Assembly (NCBI GenBank): GCA_007125125.1
Contig: SLDT01000269.1
Location: 1 to 33,366, forward strand
Source of the DNA: Gemmatimonadota bacterium
GTDB taxonomy: Bacteria; Gemmatimonadota; Gemmatimonadetes; Longimicrobiales; Gaopeijiaceae
Direction: 5' to 3'
DNA: 33,366 nt
The notes beneath the pieces were generated by a model that saw nothing but the letters and a program-made list of their open reading frames with translations, was not told where the DNA came from and searched no databases. Below are positions 3,369 to 33,366 of the stretch, piece after piece. Both the position numbers and the translations under genes were made by a program. Numbering within the stretch: the first letter of the stretch is position 1; every line of letters starts with the position of its first letter.

Positions 3369-3451
3369 GCGAAAGTGGCGGAACTGGTAGACGCGCGAGA
3401 CTTAGGATCTCGTGGCCTCGTGCCGTGGGGGTTCGAGTCCCCCCTTTCGCA
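3369..3451 (+). tRNA. tRNA-Leu, anticodon UAG
   Basis: The acceptor stem GCGAAAG (3369-3375) pairs with CTTTCGC (3444-3450), with discriminator A at 3451. The anticodon stem CGAGA/TCTCG encloses the loop CTTAGGA, giving anticodon UAG at 3403-3405, which reads CUN leucine codons. The T arm is GGGGG-TTCGAGT-CCCCC (3427-3443), and the extra arm between is long, as expected for a class II tRNA. The CCA end is not encoded; the base after the discriminator begins CTG. The gene sits 37 bases upstream of trigger factor. Confidence 0.97.
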
Positions 3452-23109: not shown

Positions 23110-24912
23110 TCAGCGGCGAACGATCTCCGGCGTGACGAGGATGATCAGGTCCTGCTGGTTCCTCGACTCGGTGGTCGTCCGGAAGAAGCGGCCCAGGAAA
23201 GGGAGCCGCATCAGGACGGGGATCCCGCTCCGCACTTCGTCGATCTCGGTCACGGTGAGCCCACCGATCACCACCGTTTCGCCGTCCTCCACGAGCACGT
23301 GGGTGTTGGCCTCCTGCGTGTTGAAGCGATAGCCCAGCTCCGGGCTGACCACCTCGACACCCGAGCGCTCGGCCCGAAGCGTCATGAAGATGAGGTCACC
23401 GGCCGTCACGGTCGGCGTCACCTCGAGGATGATCCCGGTTTCGACCAGCTCGACCGGGGCCGGGCCGAGGAAGAGGCCTTCGCCCTGCTGTGCCCCCGTA
23501 CCCGTCTGAACGCCCGCCACCGGCGTGCGTTCGCCGACCTGGATCTTCGCGAGCCGATTCTCCAGAACTCGAACCTGGGGCGAGGCCTGGATGTCGCTCA
23601 TGTTCATCTGCTCGAGCGCCTGGACGAAGGCGATCAGGCTCATCCGGCGAAGCACGAGCGTCGTCAGGAACTCGATCGAGGCCCCCGAGAACACCTGGTT
23701 TGCATTCCCGAGAGCCGCGATCGAGTTGCCCCGGAGGGTGATCCCGAAGTCGTCCGTGACGATCTCGTCGATGTTCCCGTCGCCATCGAAGTCGAACCCA
23801 CCGGGAAAGGCGCGGTTGATCTGGTTCCCCTGGGTGTCCTTGAGGTCGTAGACGACCCCGAAACGCTCGAGGTCAGTCCTGTTCACGAAGATGATCTTCG
23901 CGGAAATCGTGATCTCCGGCGTCTGCATGTCAAGACCGGAGAGCAACTCCTCGACAGCCTCGAGAACCCCGGGGACGTCGGTGACCACGAGCGAGTTCGT
24001 CGCCGCACTCACCGCAACCTGCCCACGGTCGCTCAGGAGGCTCTGAACCGCCGCGACCATGTCCTGCGCACTGCCGAAGCTGATGCGAAAGGGCCGGGTC
24101 ACGAGCTGCTCCACGTCCCGGCGCTCGGTCAGGTCCTGGAGCCGGTCGACCCGGATGATCCCGGACTCGGTCTCCCGGGCCGCGAGTGCGTAGGACTCGA
24201 GGATCGTCTGGAGTGCGATGTCCCAGGGCTGGTTCTGGATCGTCGCATTCACCGACCCTCCCACGTTCGCACCGGGCACGATCGAGCGCCCGGACCACTC
24301 CGCGAAAGTGAAGAGGACGTCGCGCATCGGGGTGTCCGTGAAGGAAACCGTGATCGGGCGCGCCTGACCCTGGGTCTGAAGCCCGCTCCACCCCGACGCC
24401 CGGCGACGGACCTCGGGGGCCGGCGCCGCCACCACCGCCGTCGCCGACGGGCGCTCGTTCGTGGCGGTGGCCACGGAGGCCCATGGCTCGAAGGACGCCG
24501 CTCCGGTGTCGAGCGACACGCGCACGTACCCGTCGCCGGTCAGGACCTGGTACCCGGAAGGAACGTCGAGCTCCAGGACCACCCGCACGACGTCTTCCGC
24601 GTACTGGGACGCGCGAATCGCGCGGACTCCTCCGCGCTCCACCGGGGCGAAGGCTCCCTCGCCGAGGGCATACTTCGCGCCAAGGAGGTCGACAACGAGC
24701 CGGTAGGGCCCCTCCATCGTGAAGTCCCGGGTCTCGACCGCTCCGGACACCCCGATGACGAGCTCGGTCCGCTCTGCCGCCGGTAGAATCTGAAGCGCCG
24801 TTACTTCCCCATTCGGGGACCCGTGCGCCGCAAGAGCGCCAGGGCCCGAGAGAAGCACGAGGCCGAGAAGGGCCGCCAGCCGGCAGGGCCCGCGGAGCAT
24901 CCTGGTGATCAT
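23110..24912 (-). CDS. pilQ: Type IV pilus secretin PilQ
   Basis: Outer-membrane gated channel through which the pilus emerges. The 600-residue protein has a signal peptide (1-29), an AMIN domain (about 36-135) of the peptidoglycan-binding type, and a linker. A secretin/TonB short N-terminal domain lies at about 188-258, a secretin N domain at about 270-345, and the C-terminal secretin barrel at about 410-600. The barrel has VETGIILEVTPTV and GIPVLMRLPFLGRFFR. Only one AMIN domain is evident. A loop at 374-383, DFDGDGNIDE, resembles a calcium-binding DxDxDG motif. The start ATG overlaps the pilP stop (ATGA). It is the last gene of pilMNOPQ. Confidence 0.96.
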   Translation of the reverse strand: MITRMLRGPCRLAALLGLVLLSGPGALAAHGSPNGEVTALQILPAAERTELVIGVSGAVETRDFTMEGPYRLVVDLLGAKYALGEGAFAPVERGGVRAIRASQYAEDVVRVVLELDVPSGYQVLTGDGYVRVSLDTGAASFEPWASVATATNERPSATAVVAAPAPEVRRRASGWSGLQTQGQARPITVSFTDTPMRDVLFTFAEWSGRSIVPGANVGGSVNATIQNQPWDIALQTILESYALAARETESGIIRVDRLQDLTERRDVEQLVTRPFRISFGSAQDMVAAVQSLLSDRGQVAVSAATNSLVVTDVPGVLEAVEELLSGLDMQTPEITISAKIIFVNRTDLERFGVVYDLKDTQGNQINRAFPGGFDFDGDGNIDEIVTDDFGITLRGNSIAALGNANQVFSGASIEFLTTLVLRRMSLIAFVQALEQMNMSDIQASPQVRVLENRLAKIQVGERTPVAGVQTGTGAQQGEGLFLGPAPVELVETGIILEVTPTVTAGDLIFMTLRAERSGVEVVSPELGYRFNTQEANTHVLVEDGETVVIGGLTVTEIDEVRSGIPVLMRLPFLGRFFRTTTESRNQQDLIILVTPEIVRR

Positions 24913-25517
24913 CGGTTTCCTCCGGTCCCGTTCAGGTCCGCCTCGTACCCGCTTCCGCCCGGAGGCGGGATCGTATCGGGTGGCGGGGTTGTGGTATCTG
25001 CCTGGTCGTCGCGCGCCGGTGGATCCGCAGGAGGCGCATCCCCCCCGGTGGCCTGGGGCGCGGTGCGCCGCTGCTCGAGCGTGCGGCGTTCGCGCATGCC
25101 GAACTCCTCGACCTCGACGATGATCTCGCGATTCCGGATCTCCACGACCCGGACGTTCCCGATTCGTTCGCCCACCCGGAGCCGATACGTCGTCCCGCCC
25201 GCTGCCCCGCCAGCCCCGATTCGTCCCAGGAGGGCTACGGACGCCCCCGGGGCCGGATCGACCATCGTTCCCATGAGCCAGAGCTCCTCGAACCGAGGAC
25301 CCGTGTCTGCTGCTCCGGTCAGGGGCCGGAAGGGGTTGCGGCGTGCATGGCCCGGATACGCGAACACCTCGCGCTCGAAGACCAGCTGCACCGTGTCGTT
25401 TCGCACCGCAGGCGGCGGCGCCTCCTGCGCCAGCGGCTCGATTCCCGACGAGAGTGCGATCGCCGGAAGACCGATCCCCACGGCCACACCGATGGGGAGA
25501 AGACGTCGTCTGGTCAT
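24909..25517 (-). CDS. pilP: PilP-like type IV pilus assembly protein
   Basis: Periplasmic linker between the PilNO inner-membrane complex and the PilQ secretin. The protein has 202 residues. Position in the pilMNOPQ order and the segment ARRNPFRPL identify it, followed by a beta-rich HR domain (WLMGTM, ALLGRIG, YRLRVGERIG, VRVVEIRNREIIVEV). The N terminus (1-31) is a signal peptide or anchor but has no lipobox Cys; classical PilP is a lipoprotein, so membrane attachment may differ here. The C-terminal 45 residues are Pro/Thr/Asp-rich and probably disordered. It overlaps pilO and pilQ by ATGA at both ends. Confidence 0.88.
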   Translation of the reverse strand: MTRRRLLPIGVAVGIGLPAIALSSGIEPLAQEAPPPAVRNDTVQLVFEREVFAYPGHARRNPFRPLTGAADTGPRFEELWLMGTMVDPAPGASVALLGRIGAGGAAGGTTYRLRVGERIGNVRVVEIRNREIIVEVEEFGMRERRTLEQRRTAPQATGGDAPPADPPARDDQADTTTPPPDTIPPPGGSGYEADLNGTGGNR

Positions 25518-26122
25518 CTCGATTCCTCCGCCTGGGTCGCGATCGTGCGCGGGGCCTCGGGCAGCACGTAGGTCAGGATCCGGAAGCGCACGACGACCGG
25601 ATTCTCGACTCCCGGCCTCGGTGGTGGCCCGGAAAAGGGCTGGATCTCCAGGTCGACCGGAGTGACGATCCGTGGCAATGAGGCGATCGAGGTGAGAAAA
25701 CGCCCGACATCATGGTACTCGCCAACCGCGGCCATGTCGTAGCTTCGCCGAGTGTAGAACTCTCCCGGTGAAGCCGGCTCCGGGCGCAGCGAACCAAGTT
25801 CGACGCGGGCCCGCCTGGCCTCCATTGCAATCGTGTTCAGGAGGGCCGGAACCTCTTCCGAGGCGGGAATCAGCTCCTCGAGCCGCCGCACATGACGCTC
25901 GTACACCACGAGGCGCTCTTCCAGCTCAGCCTCTCCCTGCAGGGCGACGATGTTTGCTCGTCGGTTCCGGTCCTGAATCTGTTCGAGTCGCGAGGTGAGC
26001 TCCTCGATTTCGAGGGAGCGTGGGGTGTAGATGTATTCGAACCATCCGTAGATGGCCGCGAGCGCGACGAACCCGATGAGCAGGCAGACCTGCTTGTGCC
26101 TTTCCTGGGGAATCAAGGCCAT
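25514..26122 (-). CDS. pilO: PilO-like type IV pilus inner-membrane protein
   Basis: Partner of PilN in the inner-membrane alignment complex. The 202-residue protein has a short cytoplasmic N terminus and one transmembrane helix (about 12-30). A periplasmic coiled coil (about 36-90; EELTSRLEQIQDRNRR) follows, then a ferredoxin-like domain with SYDMAAVGEYHDVGRFLTSI, which is characteristic of PilO. It starts three bases after pilN and overlaps pilP by four bases. Length and layout agree with the family. Confidence 0.92.
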   Translation of the reverse strand: MALIPQERHKQVCLLIGFVALAAIYGWFEYIYTPRSLEIEELTSRLEQIQDRNRRANIVALQGEAELEERLVVYERHVRRLEELIPASEEVPALLNTIAMEARRARVELGSLRPEPASPGEFYTRRSYDMAAVGEYHDVGRFLTSIASLPRIVTPVDLEIQPFSGPPPRPGVENPVVVRFRILTYVLPEAPRTIATQAEESR

Positions 26123-26125
26123 GGC

Positions 26126-26809
26126 TCAGCCCCCCTCCCCGGAGAACATGTCGATCTGTGGACCGAAGAGTGGCTCCGTCACGATCACCTCGGGGGGTGG
26201 GTCCCGGTACTCGGCCTCCAGCACGAAGTTGTAGACGAGACGCTGGGCTCCACCACCCACCGCAACCGAGGCCTGGTCGGACGAGATGAGCCCGACCCCG
26301 CGGATGAAGGGCGACGCCTCGAGCGCCTCCATGAACGAGGTCAGGGCGAAGTACGTTCCGGCCTGACCGCGCACCTCGAAGACGACGGGAGGCCCGCCGG
26401 AGATCTGCTGGATGCGCGTGAGCCAGGTGAAGTCGGGGAGGGCGCGGGCCACCTCGTCCATCACGTGGGGCCAGAGATACCGGTGGATGTCGATCTCCTG
26501 GATCACGGAGACCCGGCCCACGATCGAGTCACGCCGGGCCTGCAGCCCGGCCGTGCGTTCGATCACGCCCGAGAGCCGCACCGAGTCCGCCTCCGCAGCC
26601 CGGATCTCGAGACCGAGCTCGTCCGCCTCGCCCGCCACCTGGAGGTGCATCCATCCGATCGACGCAAAGGCAACGAGCACAAGGAGCGCGGCGCCGACCA
26701 CCCACCGGTCGCCGGGAAGCTGCGGGGCCCTCGGCATCGAAACGGCACGACGACGCCGTCGTGCGGCCGCCTTCTTCTGCCCCCCTGGAAGGAGGTTTAC
26801 CTCGATCAC
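26126..26809 (-). CDS. pilN: PilN-like type IV pilus inner-membrane protein
   Basis: Inner-membrane protein that binds PilM through its cytoplasmic N terminus and PilO through its periplasmic part. I chose GTG 26809 (227 residues) because it gives MIEVNLLPGG, matching the conserved INLLP that inserts into PilM, and GGAGGGG lies just upstream; an in-frame GTG at 26821 would put extra residues before it. A basic run (12-21) is followed by a membrane helix (about 36-55), a coiled coil and a ferredoxin-like periplasmic domain. It lies 19 bases after pilM. Confidence 0.92.
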   Translation of the reverse strand: MIEVNLLPGGQKKAAARRRRRAVSMPRAPQLPGDRWVVGAALLVLVAFASIGWMHLQVAGEADELGLEIRAAEADSVRLSGVIERTAGLQARRDSIVGRVSVIQEIDIHRYLWPHVMDEVARALPDFTWLTRIQQISGGPPVVFEVRGQAGTYFALTSFMEALEASPFIRGVGLISSDQASVAVGGGAQRLVYNFVLEAEYRDPPPEVIVTEPLFGPQIDMFSGEGG

Positions 26810-26812
26810 AGA

Positions 26813-26819
26813 CCCCTCC
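26813..26819 (-). promoter_or_regulatory. Ribosome-binding site deciding the pilN start
   Basis: GGAGGGG on the minus strand with its GGAGG core 5 bases before GTG 26809. It favours this GTG over the in-frame GTG four codons upstream. Confidence 0.7.
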
Positions 26820-26828
26820 ACGTCATCG

Positions 26829-27866
26829 TCATGGCTTCCTGAGCGCGAGTCCCACGGAAAGCTGCATCATCGGGGAACTTTGGTCCAGATCGATCCCCGA
26901 TGCGGCCCCCGCACGCACGGGCAGCCGGGCAAAGGCATTCGCGACCTGCGTCTCGACGCCCATGCGGGCTCCCAGCACCTCCGCGAGTCCCGGAATCCTG
27001 GCCCCCCCACCACTCAGGAACACCCGACCGAGTTGTTCTCCGCTTTCGCGCGTCAGGAGGAAGGCAGCCGCGCGCTCGACACCCATGGCCACGTCCTCGA
27101 CCCCTCGCTCCACGAAGATGCGCAAGTCGGGCAGGGTCTTCCTTCCCTGCACGACCTCCTCGGCTTCTTCGGCGGTGAGGCCCCGCTCCCGTTGCAGGTC
27201 TTCCCGGATGCTCCGGGAACCGAAGGGAATGTCGCGTGTCAGGATCGGGGTGCCCTCGACCAGAATGTTCACGTTCGTCATCTCGTGGCCAACGTGAACG
27301 AGGGCGACGATACCCTGCCTCACCTCCGGATGGTTGTGCTCGAAGGCGTTGTGGAGCGCGAAGGCATCGACATCGACCACCCTCGGTTGCACACCCGCTT
27401 CGCCCAGGAGCGAGAGCCGATCGTCGATCAGGTCCCGCTTCGCGGCCACCAGGAGCACCTCCATCTTCGGATCCGTCCCTTCGGGATCAAGAATCTGGAG
27501 ATCGAGCTGCACGCTCTGGATGTCGAATGGGACGTGACGCTCCGCCTCGAAGGGCAACACCTGGCGTGCGTCGGACTCGGGCATCCGGTCCATCTCGATC
27601 TTCTTGATGATCACGGCGTGCCCGCCCACCCCCGTCACGACCGAAGCCGACTTCAGGGCGGTCAGCTCGATCACGTCGCGCACGGTGTCGGCAACGGCCC
27701 CGGAGTCCATGACCTCACCCTCGACGATGGCGTCGGGGACCAAGGGGCGCATGGCCACACGCACCACCTCGGGCTGGTCACCGGAGTGGTCCACCTCCAC
27801 GAGCTTCACGAAGCCGCTGCCGATGTCGAGCCCGATGGAACTTTTCTTGCGGCCGAAGAAGACCAT
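26829..27866 (-). CDS. pilM: PilM, actin-like ATPase of type IV pilus assembly
   Basis: Cytoplasmic actin-fold protein that binds the PilN N terminus and couples the motor to the alignment complex. The protein has 345 residues. SSIGLDIGSGFVKLVEV at the N terminus is the phosphate-1 loop. VDAFALHNAF, the phosphate-2-like LVHVGHEMTNVNIL, and the adenosine motif VFLSGGGARIPGL follow. All are typical of PilM/FtsA-type proteins. AGGA precedes ATG 27866. It is the first gene of pilMNOPQ and has its own promoter candidate in the 114-base gap upstream. Confidence 0.96.
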   Translation of the reverse strand: MVFFGRKKSSIGLDIGSGFVKLVEVDHSGDQPEVVRVAMRPLVPDAIVEGEVMDSGAVADTVRDVIELTALKSASVVTGVGGHAVIIKKIEMDRMPESDARQVLPFEAERHVPFDIQSVQLDLQILDPEGTDPKMEVLLVAAKRDLIDDRLSLLGEAGVQPRVVDVDAFALHNAFEHNHPEVRQGIVALVHVGHEMTNVNILVEGTPILTRDIPFGSRSIREDLQRERGLTAEEAEEVVQGRKTLPDLRIFVERGVEDVAMGVERAAAFLLTRESGEQLGRVFLSGGGARIPGLAEVLGARMGVETQVANAFARLPVRAGAASGIDLDQSSPMMQLSVGLALRKP

Positions 27867-27980: not shown

Positions 27981-29240
27981 TCAGAATGCCGCCCCGGAGA
28001 GGTCGACCCAACTTCTCCGAGCCAGCGGTTCGGTCCAGCTCAGTCCCTGCGCGTGCGTCATCGTCTGTCCTACCACGCAGGACGAGTACTGGATCACGGA
28101 GGCCCCGACGTAGGTCTGGAGGTCGAGGTCCGCATTCCTGGCAATCGCGCCGCCGACGATTCGGGGGTTGTTTCCTCCTTGAGTCTGAAGCTGACCCTGT
28201 GCGATGATGATCCCGAAGAAGTTGAAGTTCCCCCGGAGGTCCACGTCTCCCTCGACCAGGAGAATTCCCTGCGCATAGCCATTGGACTGGATCCGGGCAT
28301 TGCCACGCACGTGGACGATCGGGAAGTGGTCGTGACAAGGGGCAAGCGTCGCGGTCGGGTCCCCCCGTTCGTAGGGGTATCCCCAGTTCCACATGTCTCC
28401 CGTGCTTGTCGCCAGGTCCCAGATGTCGCAGTCACCGTCGGCATTCAGGCTCGCGGCCGTGTTGTTGATCGTGTGCGTCCCGCCGTAGCTTCCGTCCGCC
28501 GGAACGATGACGTTCGCACGGGCAACGAGATCGGCCCACCCGAGATCCCCAAACGTCGTGAAGGTCTCGTCGGTCACGGACTCGTCTTCGGTCCAGGGCG
28601 GATCACCGGTGAGCCGGTTCGCCTGATTCCCCCCCCGGATCCCGACGCTTCCGCCACTTCCAACGACAACACCCGGAACCGAGTCGGTCGCGGGCGGACA
28701 ATCGTCCCACCCGGTAGGGACCCGATCCACTCCATGGATCTCGGAGTTCCCTCGGAGCTCCACGCTTCCCTGCGTAGTCAGGGCGGCGTTCACATTCAGG
28801 TCCGCGGTGCTTCGGCGCACGATCATCCCGAGGGTGCGCCGCGCCGGCGCCGGAAAGGCCCCGCCCGTCACCTGCCCGGTGCTCTCGATGTAGTAGAGCT
28901 GCTCGTCGACCCGCATCGCCTGGATCGTATAGCTCCCGTGCGGCTCGTTCACCGTCATCGGAGTCCCGAAGCCCCAGTTCCCGGCCATCGAGGGCGAGAA
29001 GGCCGCGAGCGCCTGCCCGAGGCCGTGCTCGGCCATGTAGAAGGCCCGAGTCGCCCGGTCGCTCGACATCCCCACGCGCTGTTCCTGGTTCGCGAAGTGG
29101 AACCCCCCGGTCAGGAGGATCGCCACCACGGCGATCGCCAGGATCGCCGCCGGGAGGGCAAACCCCTCGTCTCCTCCGGCCTCCGGTGTCGGCATGTGAG
29201 TCTTCATTGCTCCACGTTCTCCCGCTAGAGTCTCGTTCAT
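27981..29240 (-). CDS. PilX/GspK-like minor pilin with repetitive, probably beta-helical C-terminal region
   Basis: A 419-residue protein, last of the complete minor-pilin operon. The N terminus has EG/FALPAAILAIAVVAILL, a pilin-like helix with Pro4 and no Glu5, as in the tip subunits GspK and PilX. After the helical stalk (to about 80) comes a beta-rich part with repeated short strands such as VELRGNSEIHG, VHVRGNARIQSNG and GDVDLRGNFNFFG, suggesting a small beta-helix (about 148-172 and 308-385). Between them is NADGDCDIWD, a calcium-loop-like motif. Four Cys (181, 271, 302, 388) could form disulfides. The start is uncertain: ATG 29240 follows the previous stop by six bases, while ATG 29207 has GGAG. 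A role in pilus tip adhesion or initiation is inference. Confidence 0.75.
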   Translation of the reverse strand: MNETLAGERGAMKTHMPTPEAGGDEGFALPAAILAIAVVAILLTGGFHFANQEQRVGMSSDRATRAFYMAEHGLGQALAAFSPSMAGNWGFGTPMTVNEPHGSYTIQAMRVDEQLYYIESTGQVTGGAFPAPARRTLGMIVRRSTADLNVNAALTTQGSVELRGNSEIHGVDRVPTGWDDCPPATDSVPGVVVGSGGSVGIRGGNQANRLTGDPPWTEDESVTDETFTTFGDLGWADLVARANVIVPADGSYGGTHTINNTAASLNADGDCDIWDLATSTGDMWNWGYPYERGDPTATLAPCHDHFPIVHVRGNARIQSNGYAQGILLVEGDVDLRGNFNFFGIIIAQGQLQTQGGNNPRIVGGAIARNADLDLQTYVGASVIQYSSCVVGQTMTHAQGLSWTEPLARRSWVDLSGAAF

Positions 29241-29246
29241 CTGCTC

Positions 29247-30077
29247 TCAGTTCCGCACAAAGACGTCGGCCGAAAGGGCGTCCGCGATCGGATTCCCCTG
29301 GGCGTCCCGCGCATCGGAGCGGGTCCGGATCGTGACCCGGATCCGCCGAACGTCGGACGGAGTCGTCGTCGCGCTCCCGGCGCCGTCGAAGTATTCGAAG
29401 CTCACCCCGCCCGAGCCATCGACGGGCCCGACGAGGGGAACCCACGACTCCGTCCCCCGCCGCCGCCCGAGGTACCACTCCCCACCCATCTGCATCACCC
29501 CGTAGGTGAAGTCCTCGAAGGCGCGGATCGGGGCTCCGGTGCGCATTCCCCCGTAGTCCCCGCTTGCCAGGCCGGAGGCGGTGATCGTCTGGATCGTCCC
29601 CGCGAGGGGGCAGGCCCCCGCATCCTCGCTTGCATTCTGGATCGACGCGAGCGCCCACTCGTCGTCCGACGAGATCTCCGGATCGTCGTCGATGAAGACG
29701 GCGATCCCCTGCCCTGCCTCGAAGTCGTCGCCCCGAACCCAGATCGAAAGGCGCGACTGCGAGGGGTTGATCGCGCAGACGAGCCCGAAGGAGCGCATCG
29801 CACGGAACCCGATCTCCTGCGCCCCGATCGCGAGGAGGTCCCCCTCGGGCGCGCTCACCTCGCGCAACTCCGAGAAGAGGAGGTCGAGCCCCGCCCGCAC
29901 CGTCTGGTGTCCCGCCACCTGCTCCCGCTGGACGGTGAAGACCCTCTGGCTCGTGATCATCACCTGGTAGATCGCGACCATGAGCGCACCCGCAACGACC
30001 ATCGCCACGAGGAGCTCCACGAGGGTCATCCCCCGACGATCCGCGACCCGCACCCCTTCGAACCCATGCCTCTTCAT
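29247..30077 (-). CDS. PilW/GspJ-like minor prepilin
   Basis: A 276-residue type IV pilin-like protein. The leader MKRHGFEGVRVADRRG ends in Gly16, followed by MTLVELLVAMVVAGA, so prepilin peptidase would cut at G/M and leave Glu at +5. The rest is a beta-rich soluble domain with GIAVFIDDDPEISSDDEWALA and a C-terminal strand pair, as in PilW. GGAGGG precedes ATG 30077 by 5 bases, and this ATG shares one base with the stop of the previous gene (TGATG). It is third in the order GspH, GspI, GspJ, GspK. Confidence 0.86.
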   Translation of the reverse strand: MKRHGFEGVRVADRRGMTLVELLVAMVVAGALMVAIYQVMITSQRVFTVQREQVAGHQTVRAGLDLLFSELREVSAPEGDLLAIGAQEIGFRAMRSFGLVCAINPSQSRLSIWVRGDDFEAGQGIAVFIDDDPEISSDDEWALASIQNASEDAGACPLAGTIQTITASGLASGDYGGMRTGAPIRAFEDFTYGVMQMGGEWYLGRRRGTESWVPLVGPVDGSGGVSFEYFDGAGSATTTPSDVRRIRVTIRTRSDARDAQGNPIADALSADVFVRN

Positions 30078-30577
30078 CAGTCCCTCCGCATGAGCCGGTA
30101 GGTGAAGGTGTCGACCGCATTCGGGGTCACCTCGGGCATCCCGCCTCCGGCCGATGCCTGCCGGCCGGGGCCGGTCACGATGAAGCGAACGACGCGTGAC
30201 TGCTGTCCGGTCGCGGTCACCTCCCAGGCGACGGTGTGATCCCCGAAGGCCTCGGAGCCATCGACCACGGACCCGTAGGGCATCGCACGGACCGACTCGA
30301 CCGCAGACTGGAGCGCCGTGCTTCGCGCCGTCTCGACCTGCCCGAAGTGCACCGTCCGGATCATCCATCCCGTCCCCGCGGCGAGCCCGAGGAGTCCGAT
30401 CGTCAGGACGAGGAGCGCCACGATGACCTCCACGAGCGAGAACCCCGCACGCCCGCGTGGCCCGGCACCCCTGGCACCGTTGACCCCTGCACCGCCCTTG
30501 ACCGGGGCCACGACGCCCCCCGCGGTCACGTCTCCGAGGGTCATCCTCTCGACTCCCGCAGCATCCCGGCCCATCAT
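30077..30577 (-). CDS. PilV/GspI-like minor prepilin
   Basis: A 166-residue prepilin. The hydrophobic helix begins at AG/FSLVEVIVALLVLTIGLLGLA with Glu at +5. The leader is unusually long, about 45 residues from ATG 30577; ATG 30544 (GGGAG 8 bases upstream) would shorten it to about 34. AGGAGG lies just before ATG 30577 and the adjoining ATG 30574. The soluble part is short, with VAWEVTATGQQSRVVRFIVTG, typical of PilV/GspI. It overlaps the preceding gene by ATGA. Confidence 0.84.
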   Translation of the reverse strand: MMGRDAAGVERMTLGDVTAGGVVAPVKGGAGVNGARGAGPRGRAGFSLVEVIVALLVLTIGLLGLAAGTGWMIRTVHFGQVETARSTALQSAVESVRAMPYGSVVDGSEAFGDHTVAWEVTATGQQSRVVRFIVTGPGRQASAGGGMPEVTPNAVDTFTYRLMRRD

Positions 30578-31035
30578 GCCTCCTGGAGCTGCCCGAGGGG
30601 AAGGAGTGCGACGCGCCGGGTCCGCGCACCCCGGGTGAAGACGATCTCCGTGCGCGTCGTCACGTTCCCGCAGCGGGTGTCTGCGTACCCCCGGGGCGTC
30701 ATGCAGAGCTCGACCACCCCTCCGGGCGTCGTCACCGCAACCTCGTAGTCCTGCGCGAAGTTCCGGCTCTGGATCACGGTCCCCCCTTCGGTCGTGACCG
30801 AGACCACCCCGGAGGCGGGGTCGACGCGGAGGACGATCGCCTCGCCCCGCTCGACCGCGAGCGCCCGCGTCTGGGCATGGATCGTCATGAAGGTCGTCTG
30901 GGCGGTCCGTGCCCCGAGCGCCCCGTGCACCTGGCTGAAGCTGCGGATCGCGATCATGCTCATGAGGCCGCCGACCACGACCACGATGAGCATCTCGATC
31001 AGGGTGAAGCCGGCTGTGCGTCGGGGTCGAGACAT
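30574..31035 (-). CDS. FimT/GspH-like minor prepilin
   Basis: A 153-residue prepilin, first gene of the complete minor-pilin operon. The short leader MSRPRRTAG is followed by FTLIEMLIVVVVGGLMSM with Glu at +5, the classic class-III-like signal. The soluble domain has the GspH pattern (ALAVERGEAIVLRVDP and, near the end, EIVFTRGARTRRVALLPLGQL). Cys residues in ELCMTPRGYADTRCG could form a disulfide loop. A sigma-54-like promoter candidate lies about 42 bases upstream. The ribosome-binding site before ATG 31035 is weak. Confidence 0.87.
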   Translation of the reverse strand: MSRPRRTAGFTLIEMLIVVVVGGLMSMIAIRSFSQVHGALGARTAQTTFMTIHAQTRALAVERGEAIVLRVDPASGVVSVTTEGGTVIQSRNFAQDYEVAVTTPGGVVELCMTPRGYADTRCGNVTTRTEIVFTRGARTRRVALLPLGQLQEA

Positions 31036-31076
31036 CGGAACTCTGGAAAGAGGGGAACGTCGTCCCTCACTTTCCT

Positions 31077-31093
31077 TTCCAGAACCGTGCCAG
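31077..31093 (-). promoter_or_regulatory. Sigma-54-like promoter candidate for minor-pilin operon
   Basis: Minus strand reads CTGGCACGGTTCTGGAA. The -24 element TGGCACG is a perfect match with correct position of the -12 element, but that element reads TGGA instead of TTGC, so the match is partial. It lies 41 bases before the GspH-like ATG, after the terminator of the upstream operon. An NtrC-type activator is encoded in the same window. Confidence 0.35.
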
Positions 31094-31146
31094 CTCGGGG
31101 GACTCCGAAACCCCTTGATTTTCCTGGACTGCCTTCTCCGATTCGG

Positions 31147-31170
31147 AAAAAAGTTCCGCTATCTGGAACT
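31147..31170 (-). terminator. Intrinsic terminator after the upstream minor-pilin operon
   Basis: On the minus strand AGTTCC and GGAACT enclose a 7-base loop and are followed by TTTTT (stem arms 31152-31157 and 31165-31170, A-run on the plus strand at 31147-31152). It is 54 bases after the stop of the PilX/GspK-like gene. The stem is short but the T tract is clear. Confidence 0.6.
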
Positions 31171-31224
31171 CCTGTCCGGACCGTTCTTGCAGGATGCGGG
31201 AGCCGTCCCCCGGGGTTCGGCGGC

Positions 31225-32184
31225 TCAGAAGCGCCCGAGGAACCCGCCCCCGGGCACGGCAAAGGGTACCCCGAGGACCGCGACCCCGTCGCCGGCACCC
31301 GCCACCAGGGAGCGGCATCCGACGAGGCGGGCACCTCCCGTGATCCGGACCTCGCCGCCGGCCTCGACCGCGCCCCGGACCCCGGCCCCGTCACGCAGGA
31401 CGAGGGTGCCCCGGACCAGGACGAGTCCCTCGAAGCGGGCCCCTCCCTCGAGCACGAGGTCCCCGGCCGACACGAGGAGACCGCCACCCCCTCCCCCCGC
31501 GATCCGGCCGGGCCCCGGAGGCCCCCCGGGCCCGGCCGGGCCGGTCGCACCGACGAGGGCGCGCCCTCCATCGTCGCCCCAGCCGGCCCACCCGCCGGGC
31601 AGCTCCGCGCCGGGAAGAAGGACCGGGTCGGCCCGCTCGAGGAGCGCCTCGAGGGAGACGGGCCCGAGACGGGGCCGGCCCGGGAGCGAGGGCTCCGGGA
31701 AGGGTGGGAGGGGTGCACTTCGCCGGCGGTGGAGGGCGAAGGGGTCGAGGGGATCCGTACCCGCGCACCCTTCGGCGGGGCCCCCTGCGAGGAGATCTCC
31801 CCCATCCACCTCGAGCCCCTCGCCCGTGACGGCCGCCGCGGAGAGCTCCGCGGCGAGCCGCGCCATCCCGGGAACCCATCCGACGCTCCAGAGCCTCCAC
31901 CCCACCCCTTCGACCGGCTCCTCGACGAGGTGGAACCCATCTCCAAGGGCGTGCACCGCCACCGCCTCGCCCCCCTCCTCGAGCGCCCCCGCGAGCCCCT
32001 CCGGCGAGAGCGGGCGCCGCGCCAGTGCCTCGGCCAGCCGGCGGTCCCCGTCCGAGAGGATCAGGCTGACCCGGGCCGTCGCGAGGAGCGAGGCCCCGAG
32101 GAGGGTCCCCGCGAGGAGGATGAAGAGGGCCGCGGGAAGGATCACCCCGGCGCGGCCGCCGAGCCTTCCTGACGCCGCGCTCAT
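31225..32184 (-). CDS. PilX/GspK-like minor pilin with collagen-like tract
   Basis: A 319-residue protein, last of the right-hand minor-pilin operon. The N terminus has GRAG/VILPAALFILLAGTLLG, a pilin-like helix with Pro4 and no Glu5, as in the PilX/GspK-like protein of the left-hand operon. The middle is Gly/Pro-rich and includes five Gly-X-Y triplets (GATGPAGPGGPPGPG, 212-226) then a Gly run. The C-terminal 80 residues consist of short repeated strands (GDLVLEGGARFEG, LVLRDGAGVRG, GEVRITGGARLVG), suggesting a small beta-helix. ATG 32184 overlaps the previous stop (ATGA). A tip-adhesin role is only inferred. Confidence 0.72.
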   Translation of the reverse strand: MSAASGRLGGRAGVILPAALFILLAGTLLGASLLATARVSLILSDGDRRLAEALARRPLSPEGLAGALEEGGEAVAVHALGDGFHLVEEPVEGVGWRLWSVGWVPGMARLAAELSAAAVTGEGLEVDGGDLLAGGPAEGCAGTDPLDPFALHRRRSAPLPPFPEPSLPGRPRLGPVSLEALLERADPVLLPGAELPGGWAGWGDDGGRALVGATGPAGPGGPPGPGRIAGGGGGGLLVSAGDLVLEGGARFEGLVLVRGTLVLRDGAGVRGAVEAGGEVRITGGARLVGCRSLVAGAGDGVAVLGVPFAVPGGGFLGRF

Positions 32185-32921
32185 GGGTCGATCCTGAAGG
32201 GGAAGGCGATCACACCCCCGCCCCCGGCCACGCCGGGGAGGGCGGTGAACTCGGCTCGCAGCATGAACTCGCCCGCGCCGAGGAGTTCGAAACGGCTCCC
32301 GCCGGCGAAGAGCTCGGGGGTCAGGGGCTGGCGCCCGCCCTGTCCCCGTTCCCAGCGGAATGCCCGGTTGTGGAAGGAGTAGCTCCCCTGCTCGAAGAGG
32401 CGCACGAGGACGGGGCGCCCCGGGATCGTGCCCTCGATCCGGATCCGCGCGTCCCGCTCCCCGGGGACCGGCACGCAGGGCGCCCACCCCTCCCACCACC
32501 CGGTGAGCGCCGCGGGGTACCAGCCCCCGTCCCCGGCAAGGACGAGGAGGGAGTCCCGCCCCGGCACGGGAAGTCGATCTCCGGTCCAGAGGATCCCCCA
32601 GACCCCGGGCTCCGGCTCCCCGGGGCAGACCCTCCCGATTCCCCGGAACCCCCGCAGCTCGAGGGCCCCGTCGGGGGTGAGGTGCCAGTCCCGGCCGGGA
32701 AGCCCGGGACGGACCTCCCGCTCGACGGTGATCCATGCGGTGCGCAGGGCATCCATCCGGTCGCTTCGGACGATCCCCGCCTCGACAGCTCGAGAGAGGC
32801 TGCCGAAGAGCTGGATCGCGGCACCGAGGAGGAGCACCCCGAGGACGAGCGCAACGAGGAGCTCCACCAGGGTGAAGCCCTCCCCGCGCTGCCGCCCTCC
32901 GGGCCTGCCTCCGGTTGTCAT
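32181..32921 (-). CDS. PilW/GspJ-like minor prepilin (second set)
   Basis: A 246-residue prepilin. The leader ends RQRGEG, followed by FTLVELLVALVLGVLLLG with Glu at +5. The soluble domain has two Cys (CPGEPEPG and WAPCVPV), possibly bonded. It ends in GGVIAFPFRIDP. It has the same place in its operon as the GspJ-like gene of the left-hand set but shows little obvious similarity outside the N-terminal helix. GAGGT lies about 10 bases before ATG 32921. It overlaps its neighbours by ATGA on both sides. Confidence 0.84.
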   Translation of the reverse strand: MTTGGRPGGRQRGEGFTLVELLVALVLGVLLLGAAIQLFGSLSRAVEAGIVRSDRMDALRTAWITVEREVRPGLPGRDWHLTPDGALELRGFRGIGRVCPGEPEPGVWGILWTGDRLPVPGRDSLLVLAGDGGWYPAALTGWWEGWAPCVPVPGERDARIRIEGTIPGRPVLVRLFEQGSYSFHNRAFRWERGQGGRQPLTPELFAGGSRFELLGAGEFMLRAEFTALPGVAGGGGVIAFPFRIDP

Positions 32922-33250
32922 GGCTCGACCTCGCGGCCCCGGATCAGCCGCCAGGGCTCGACGGCCGGCTCCGGGAGGTGGAGCTCGAGCCCGCCCGCGC
33001 CGTCCCAGCTCCAGGGGACCGCGCGCCCCCCCGCCTCGAAGGCGCCGGAGAGGGTGTCGCCCGGGGTCGCGGCGGCGAGGGAGTCGAGGAGGGCGAGCCC
33101 CCGGCCGGCCGTCTCGAGGCGACGCTCCGACTCGAGGAGGAGCGACGCGCTCAGCAGGATGAACCCGGTCACCGCGGCACCTGCGATCCCGAGTATCGGG
33201 ATCGCGATGACGAGCTCCATCAGCGCATGCCCTTCCCTCCCCCGTCTCAC
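32918..33250 (-). CDS. PilV/GspI-like short minor prepilin (second set)
   Basis: A 110-residue protein starting at GTG 33250, which overlaps the preceding stop (GTGA). The N terminus MRRGREG is followed by HALMELVIAIPILGIAGAAV: cleavage after Gly7 would leave His at +1, rare for pilins, and Glu at +5. After the helix there are only about 80 residues, small even for PilV/GspI. The order and overlaps place it second in the operon. The assignment rests on the signal and context more than on the soluble part. Confidence 0.75.
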   Translation of the reverse strand: MRRGREGHALMELVIAIPILGIAGAAVTGFILLSASLLLESERRLETAGRGLALLDSLAAATPGDTLSGAFEAGGRAVPWSWDGAGGLELHLPEPAVEPWRLIRGREVEP

Positions 33251-33366
33251 CGTCGCACCCTCCCGTACGACGAGATCACGATCCGCACCTCCTCCCGCCC
33301 CCTGCTGAGGACGAGGGTACTGTTCGCGAAGCGCCCGGTCCCGCTCGGGCCGAAGGCGATCTCGGC
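33247..33366 (-). CDS. FimT/GspH-like minor prepilin, 3' end only
   Basis: The last 39 codons of a gene cut by the window edge. The residues EIAFGPSGTGRF and VRIVISSYGRVRR match the C-terminal pattern of GspH/FimT proteins (I-x-F-x-P-x-G and a final V-x-S-x-x-G-R-V-R). The stop overlaps the start of the next gene (GTGA). It is the first of the H-I-J-K series, mirroring the gene at 30574-31035. The pilin signal lies outside the window. Confidence 0.7.
   Translation of the reverse strand, partial: AEIAFGPSGTGRFANSTLVLSRGREEVRIVISSYGRVRR

Follow-up and report, generated by a model that had tools for sequence, protein, structure and literature searches.

This locus raises the question of why two series of minor pilin genes, each in the order H-I-J-K, should lie side by side next to a pilMNOPQ operon, and whether they serve one pilus machine or different ones. 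The window, by which we mean the whole stretch of DNA analysed (33,366 bases), is the entire contig C82 of a 3.5 Mb metagenome-assembled genome, and its right end (33246-33366) repeats, without a mismatch over 121 bp, the first bases (1-121) of another contig of this genome, C68, as is typical of an assembly overlap. On one strand, C68 encodes first a histidine kinase, then a response regulator of the PilR type that activates sigma-54 (Sigma54_activat 9.8e-67, Fis HTH) and then the complete version of the H gene that is cut at the edge of the window, placing a PilS/PilR-type two-component pair just upstream of the right-hand set. The join of the two contigs is supported by the identical gene order in relatives. 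By its PilM relatives the genome falls in Gemmatimonadota, the closest named record being L026 (PilM 77%). Judging from the relatives, pilA would be expected upstream of pilS; no pilA-like N_methyl match was found in the genome, and the end of C68 beyond position 3440 is without it, which probably reflects an assembly gap.

Two sets of minor pilin genes

An earlier note on this DNA had described two H-I-J-K series that correspond member by member and are strongly diverged outside the N-terminal helix, here called the L (left) and R (right) sets. The relevant features, all on the minus strand, are as follows.

23110..26821, minus strand: pilN, pilO, pilP and pilQ, in the same operon direction as pilM; profiles conserved in relatives
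26829..27866, minus strand: pilM, which opens the pilMNOPQ operon immediately after the L set
27981..29240, minus strand: L-set K, PilX/GspK-type tip pilin with a predicted beta-solenoid insertion, 408-419 aa (AF2, Foldseek); alternative possible start at 29207
29247..30077, minus strand: L-set J, PilW/GspJ-type minor pilin, 276 aa (N_methyl)
30077..30577, minus strand: L-set I, PilV/GspI-type minor pilin, 166 aa (N_methyl; PilV TIGR02523 partial)
30574..31035, minus strand: L-set H, FimT/GspH-type minor pilin, 153 aa (N_methyl 30.7 bits; TIGR GspH partial)
31225..32184, minus strand: R-set K, PilX/GspK-type tip pilin with a predicted beta-solenoid domain, 319 aa (profile match to L-set K; AF2)
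32181..32921, minus strand: R-set J, PilW/GspJ-type minor pilin, 246 aa (N_methyl 27.4 bits)
32918..33250, minus strand: R-set I, PilV/GspI-type minor pilin, 110 aa (class III signal G|HALME)
33247..33366, minus strand: R-set H, FimT/GspH-type, 3' end only in the window; complete on C68 (L013:2-475, 157 aa)

Both series stand as the earlier note had placed them: all of these genes are intact open reading frames with codon use of the coding type, most neighbours within each set overlap by 1-4 bases, and the truncated R-set H gene is completed by C68. Class III prepilin signals are present in all four members of both sets, in the H-I-J-K order, those of R-set I and R-set K being recognised by eye in proteins with no significant N_methyl match. 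The H, I and J proteins of both sets have the Gly-1 of the cleavage site and Glu5; Glu5 is absent from both K proteins, as it is from the GspK family.

Family profile searches, which the note had suggested, were informative mainly in a second form. Since the Pfam and NCBIfam models of minor pilins score mainly the N-terminal helix, we built alignments of orthologs from the relatives and compared the resulting profiles with each other. In these profile-profile comparisons the R and L proteins matched in all four pairs: H with E 1.8e-18 over 138 columns, I with 3.6e-16 over 101, J with 4.5e-17 over 189 and K with 1.3e-41 over 342. Based on these matches, the R and L genes are paralogues in one-to-one correspondence, and the aligned pairs share 16-23% identity, with the K pair at 16%, in keeping with the strong divergence that had been claimed. 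The PilX_N domain (PF14341) is absent from the window's own K proteins and was detected in 5 of 23 L-type and 2 of 17 R-type proteins of relatives.

Age and distribution of the sets

We then placed the locus among 29 PilM loci of named relatives and 80 loci from whole genomes. Across the order the genes are arranged as pilA (often two), pilS, pilR, the R set, in some loci the L set, and pilMNOPQ. A tree of the concatenated sets (36 rows, 856 columns) recovered R and L as one clade each (SH-aLRT 100 for both), with the split between the families f1 and f2 recurring inside both, so that the duplication must be older than these families. As read from this topology the duplication is ancient, both sets having been kept since before the f1/f2 split, and a recent tandem duplication is rejected by the same tree. 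A grouping of R and L to the exclusion of other Gemmatimonadota sets, which bears on whether the duplication predates the class, was not rejected (p-AU 0.24). Outside the order a single set is usual and is closer to L; tandem sets were nevertheless also seen there in L101 and L110 (two sets each), and L086 has two PilX genes. As the two sets of L110 are sisters in the tree, minor-pilin sets seem to have been duplicated in tandem on more than one occasion.

In a hand count of the f1 and f2 loci with enough upstream DNA, for which gene calling had missed some short or fast-evolving genes, both sets were present in about 19 loci and R alone in about 18; 2 had neither and none had L only. A profile search with the L-set PilX revealed that in two R-only genomes, G114 and G134, the L set has been relocated intact elsewhere, which makes it a separable unit; the same search found no full-length L-type PilX in the single-contig R-only genomes G068 and G016. 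The presence of R alone with pilMNOPQ in the roughly 18 loci, these two genomes included, suggests that the R set appears able to prime pili by itself.

Two further genes or gene sets were observed in these surveys. A divergent gene of about 1,020-1,050 aa, by eye a spermidine-synthase-like membrane protein (L036:2841-5903, L033:460-3612, L136:7913-11029), separates the R set from the L set in two loci and lies beside the relocated L set in G134, where its persistence suggests that the L set takes this left neighbour along when it moves. Separately, a third minor-pilin set occurs elsewhere in three relatives, at L140:5738-8491 (G188:C95), L139:3678-6377 (G134:C68) and L138:4839-8319 (G114:C21), and in two of the three it adjoins, by eye, a large NAD-glutamate dehydrogenase-like gene; the window's own genome gave no sign of such a set.

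The two sets differ in tempo, with R evolving about 1.9 times faster than L (path from the window's set to that of L026 1.13 versus 0.60), and with dN of 0.34-0.51 for R versus 0.32-0.38 for L, higher in most R genes. Such figures might be expected if R were a decaying or repurposed copy with no role in pilus assembly. However, its frames are all open and have the codon-position patterns of selected genes, dN is below dS in every gene of both sets (dS being near saturation), and at the pil loci where L has been lost it is R that is kept. Hence, we regard decay of R as very improbable.

The neighbouring machine and the boundary between the sets

The earlier note had left it undecided whether two sets serve one PilMNOPQ machine or whether one of them belongs to another filament or to a secretion system. 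The second possibility draws some appeal from the strong divergence of R and from the two pilA genes that often lie upstream in relatives, which might point to a second pilus built from a major pilin of its own. The type II pseudopilins GspH-I-J-K share the four-member order and the signal peptides, and R-set H scores above the Pfam GspH cut-off (PF12019, 31 bits versus 21). Against this, the only other pilin-type clusters in the genome are a GspG on contig C144 (T2SSG 1e-39) and, on contig C248, a GspF-H-I-J-K-L-M series followed by a GspE. As the type II secretion system of this genome thus has GspH-K proteins of its own, neither minor-pilin set belongs to it. The T2SSK domain is found in the C248 GspK and in neither the R-set nor the L-set K, whose alignments with that GspK are limited to the leader helix. 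No type II secretion genes lie beside either set; both sets adjoin pilMNOPQ and pilSR, in the window and in relatives, and the genome has one pilM. We therefore reject membership of one set in the type II system. We likewise reject the idea that each set is matched to its own pilA gene where there are two: no such correlation exists among the relatives' loci, and two pilA genes are common in R-only loci too, so that the number of pilA genes does not follow the presence of either set. Service of one set to any other machine is in our estimate distinctly unlikely, and the note's first option, two sets on one machine, is the one which the single pilM, the four homologous pairs and the linkage to pilSR and pilMNOPQ across relatives uphold.

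Two elements at the boundary between the sets bear on how they might be expressed.

31079..31092, minus strand: sigma-54-type -24/-12 element TGGCACGGTTCTGG, 57 bases upstream of where the L set starts
31147..31172, minus strand: terminator-like hairpin GAGTTCC-agatagc-GGAACTT with a T run, after the R set (fold)

The hairpin, which the note had taken to separate the sets, is indeed present, with a stem at 31152-31172, a T run to 31147 and a 49-nt fold of -20.7 kcal/mol (z -3.4), but it recurs at the R/L boundary in only 1 of 15 relatives. A conserved terminator as the boundary of the sets is thus rejected.

The sigma-54-type element has a different distribution. Using the pattern TGGCAYG-N4-NNG, and also a scoring-matrix version and a wide scan, we found it to be the sole match in the window, and to lie within 250 bases upstream of the L-set FimT in 16 of 21 loci, versus 0.27 expected, usually about 60 bases from the L-set start. 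It was present upstream of the R set in none of 29 loci and just upstream of pilM in none of 20 L-bearing loci. In 5 of 17 R-only loci it stands before pilM (L034, L045, L051, L052, L060), as expected if an L set that once stood between promoter and pilM had been lost, or if in other lineages one had been inserted at that place. The window's own site has a poor -12 part (TGGA), and because several loci, this one included, deviate in the -12 half, the promoter is assigned by comparison rather than by mapping. On these strong comparative grounds a sigma-54-type promoter before the L set would be the conserved boundary between the sets. RpoN is encoded in the genome, and a scan for sigma-70 promoters gave no match. 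The L set and pilMNOPQ thus appear to form one sigma-54-driven unit that begins with the L set, and R appears to belong to the pilSR unit.

Based on this organisation we consider it reasonably probable that the sets form two priming or tip complexes for one type IVa pilus machine, R going with pilSR and L with pilMNOPQ. An old duplication would have left two complete minor-pilin sets on one PilMNOPQ machine; the R set, behind pilSR, would be expressed together with it, and the L set would head the pilMNOPQ operon from a sigma-54-type promoter presumably activated by PilR. The K protein of each set, with its putative beta-solenoid head, would sit at the tip as the first point of contact, and the one machine would thereby probably be given two kinds of tip, which may recognise different ligands. 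The assembly of two separate tips, the control of the L promoter by PilR and the difference in ligands are what we infer from this arrangement.

The same regulatory scheme also accommodates a composite tip, in which both sets supply subunits to one enlarged priming complex. Active PilR would probably lead to both sets being made and present together, R and L pilins could then mix in one tip, and the loci are adjacent, share one machine and are both kept in two families. Yet each set is a complete H-I-J-K series, and the occurrence of R without L in the R-only loci and in the two single-contig genomes argues that L is not an obligate partner, leaving a composite tip rather unlikely. Alternative tips from the two sets are the likeliest reading, based on precedent and on genomic logic.

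Putative tip pilins and comparison with known systems

AlphaFold2 models of the two K proteins (mean pLDDT 78 for R and 82 for L) both combine the extended helix of pilins with a small sheet and a region rich in beta strands, which we read as a beta-solenoid. The best Foldseek match of L-set K is ComZ (6qvi, E 3.8e-7, probability 1.0, with a low TM of 0.27), and R-set K gave only weak matches to ice-binding beta-solenoids (E 4e-3); a search of the L-set K profile against PDB sequences matched no solved chain. PilY1 was found in neither operon, nor in the window's own genome or 60 genomes of the order, in a search that lacked a working positive control. From the models, the beta-solenoid of K may take the role of the tip, and the presence of ComEC in the genome makes DNA uptake possible. 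More speculatively, and with low expectation, we suggest that in this order the usual PilY1 tip adhesin might have been replaced by two beta-solenoid tip pilins, one per set, which would split functions between them (for example, DNA capture by a ComZ-like L and adhesion or movement by R), the sigma-54 promoter setting the number of machines with an L tip.

A structural parallel is PilA1-PilA2-PilA3-ComZ of Thermus thermophilus, in which ComZ, a GspK-like tip pilin whose fold contains a beta-solenoid insertion, binds DNA and lies by a GspI/PilV-like partner (PMC6561018). The L-set K with its putative beta-solenoid may resemble ComZ, its best structural match; however, the TM-score is low, no sequence similarity to a solved chain was found, and the Thermus genes form a competence locus, whereas ours are a tandem pair beside pilMNOPQ.

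Our search of the literature found no study on minor pilins in Gemmatimonadota, and the locus touches two open questions, namely how one pilus machine may carry different tips and how a pilus may be capped without PilY1. The relatives with both sets, R only or a moved L constitute a natural experiment that makes a division of labour directly testable.

Precedents for several sets on one machine exist. In Myxococcus xanthus a single PilA and a single machine are served by three minor-pilin/PilY1 clusters, of which either cluster 1 or cluster 3 is enough without the others (Treuner-Lange 2020, PMC7541494). It thus offers several complete FimU-PilV-PilW-PilX sets for one major pilin and machine, which its authors suggest form tips with different properties; there, each cluster includes PilY1 (PMC7541494), whereas none was found here, where the sets follow one another between pilSR and pilMNOPQ, divided by a putative sigma-54-type promoter and equipped with putative beta-solenoid K heads. 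Xylella fastidiosa has duplicated pilEVWX/fimT/pilY1 sets whose mutants mostly show opposite phenotypes, which has been interpreted as neofunctionalisation (PMC9956873). Its genome thus holds, like ours, two paralogous minor-pilin operons, but these occupy separate regions of the genome and contain PilY1, and one receptor is FimT3 (PMC9956873), whereas the sets described here are adjacent and their divergence predates family-level splits. Multiple minor-pilin sets are therefore already known from Myxococcus and Xylella, and what this locus adds is predicted beta-solenoid tips with no PilY1 detected, a partition of the sets by a putative promoter, their tandem placement and the great age of their duplication.
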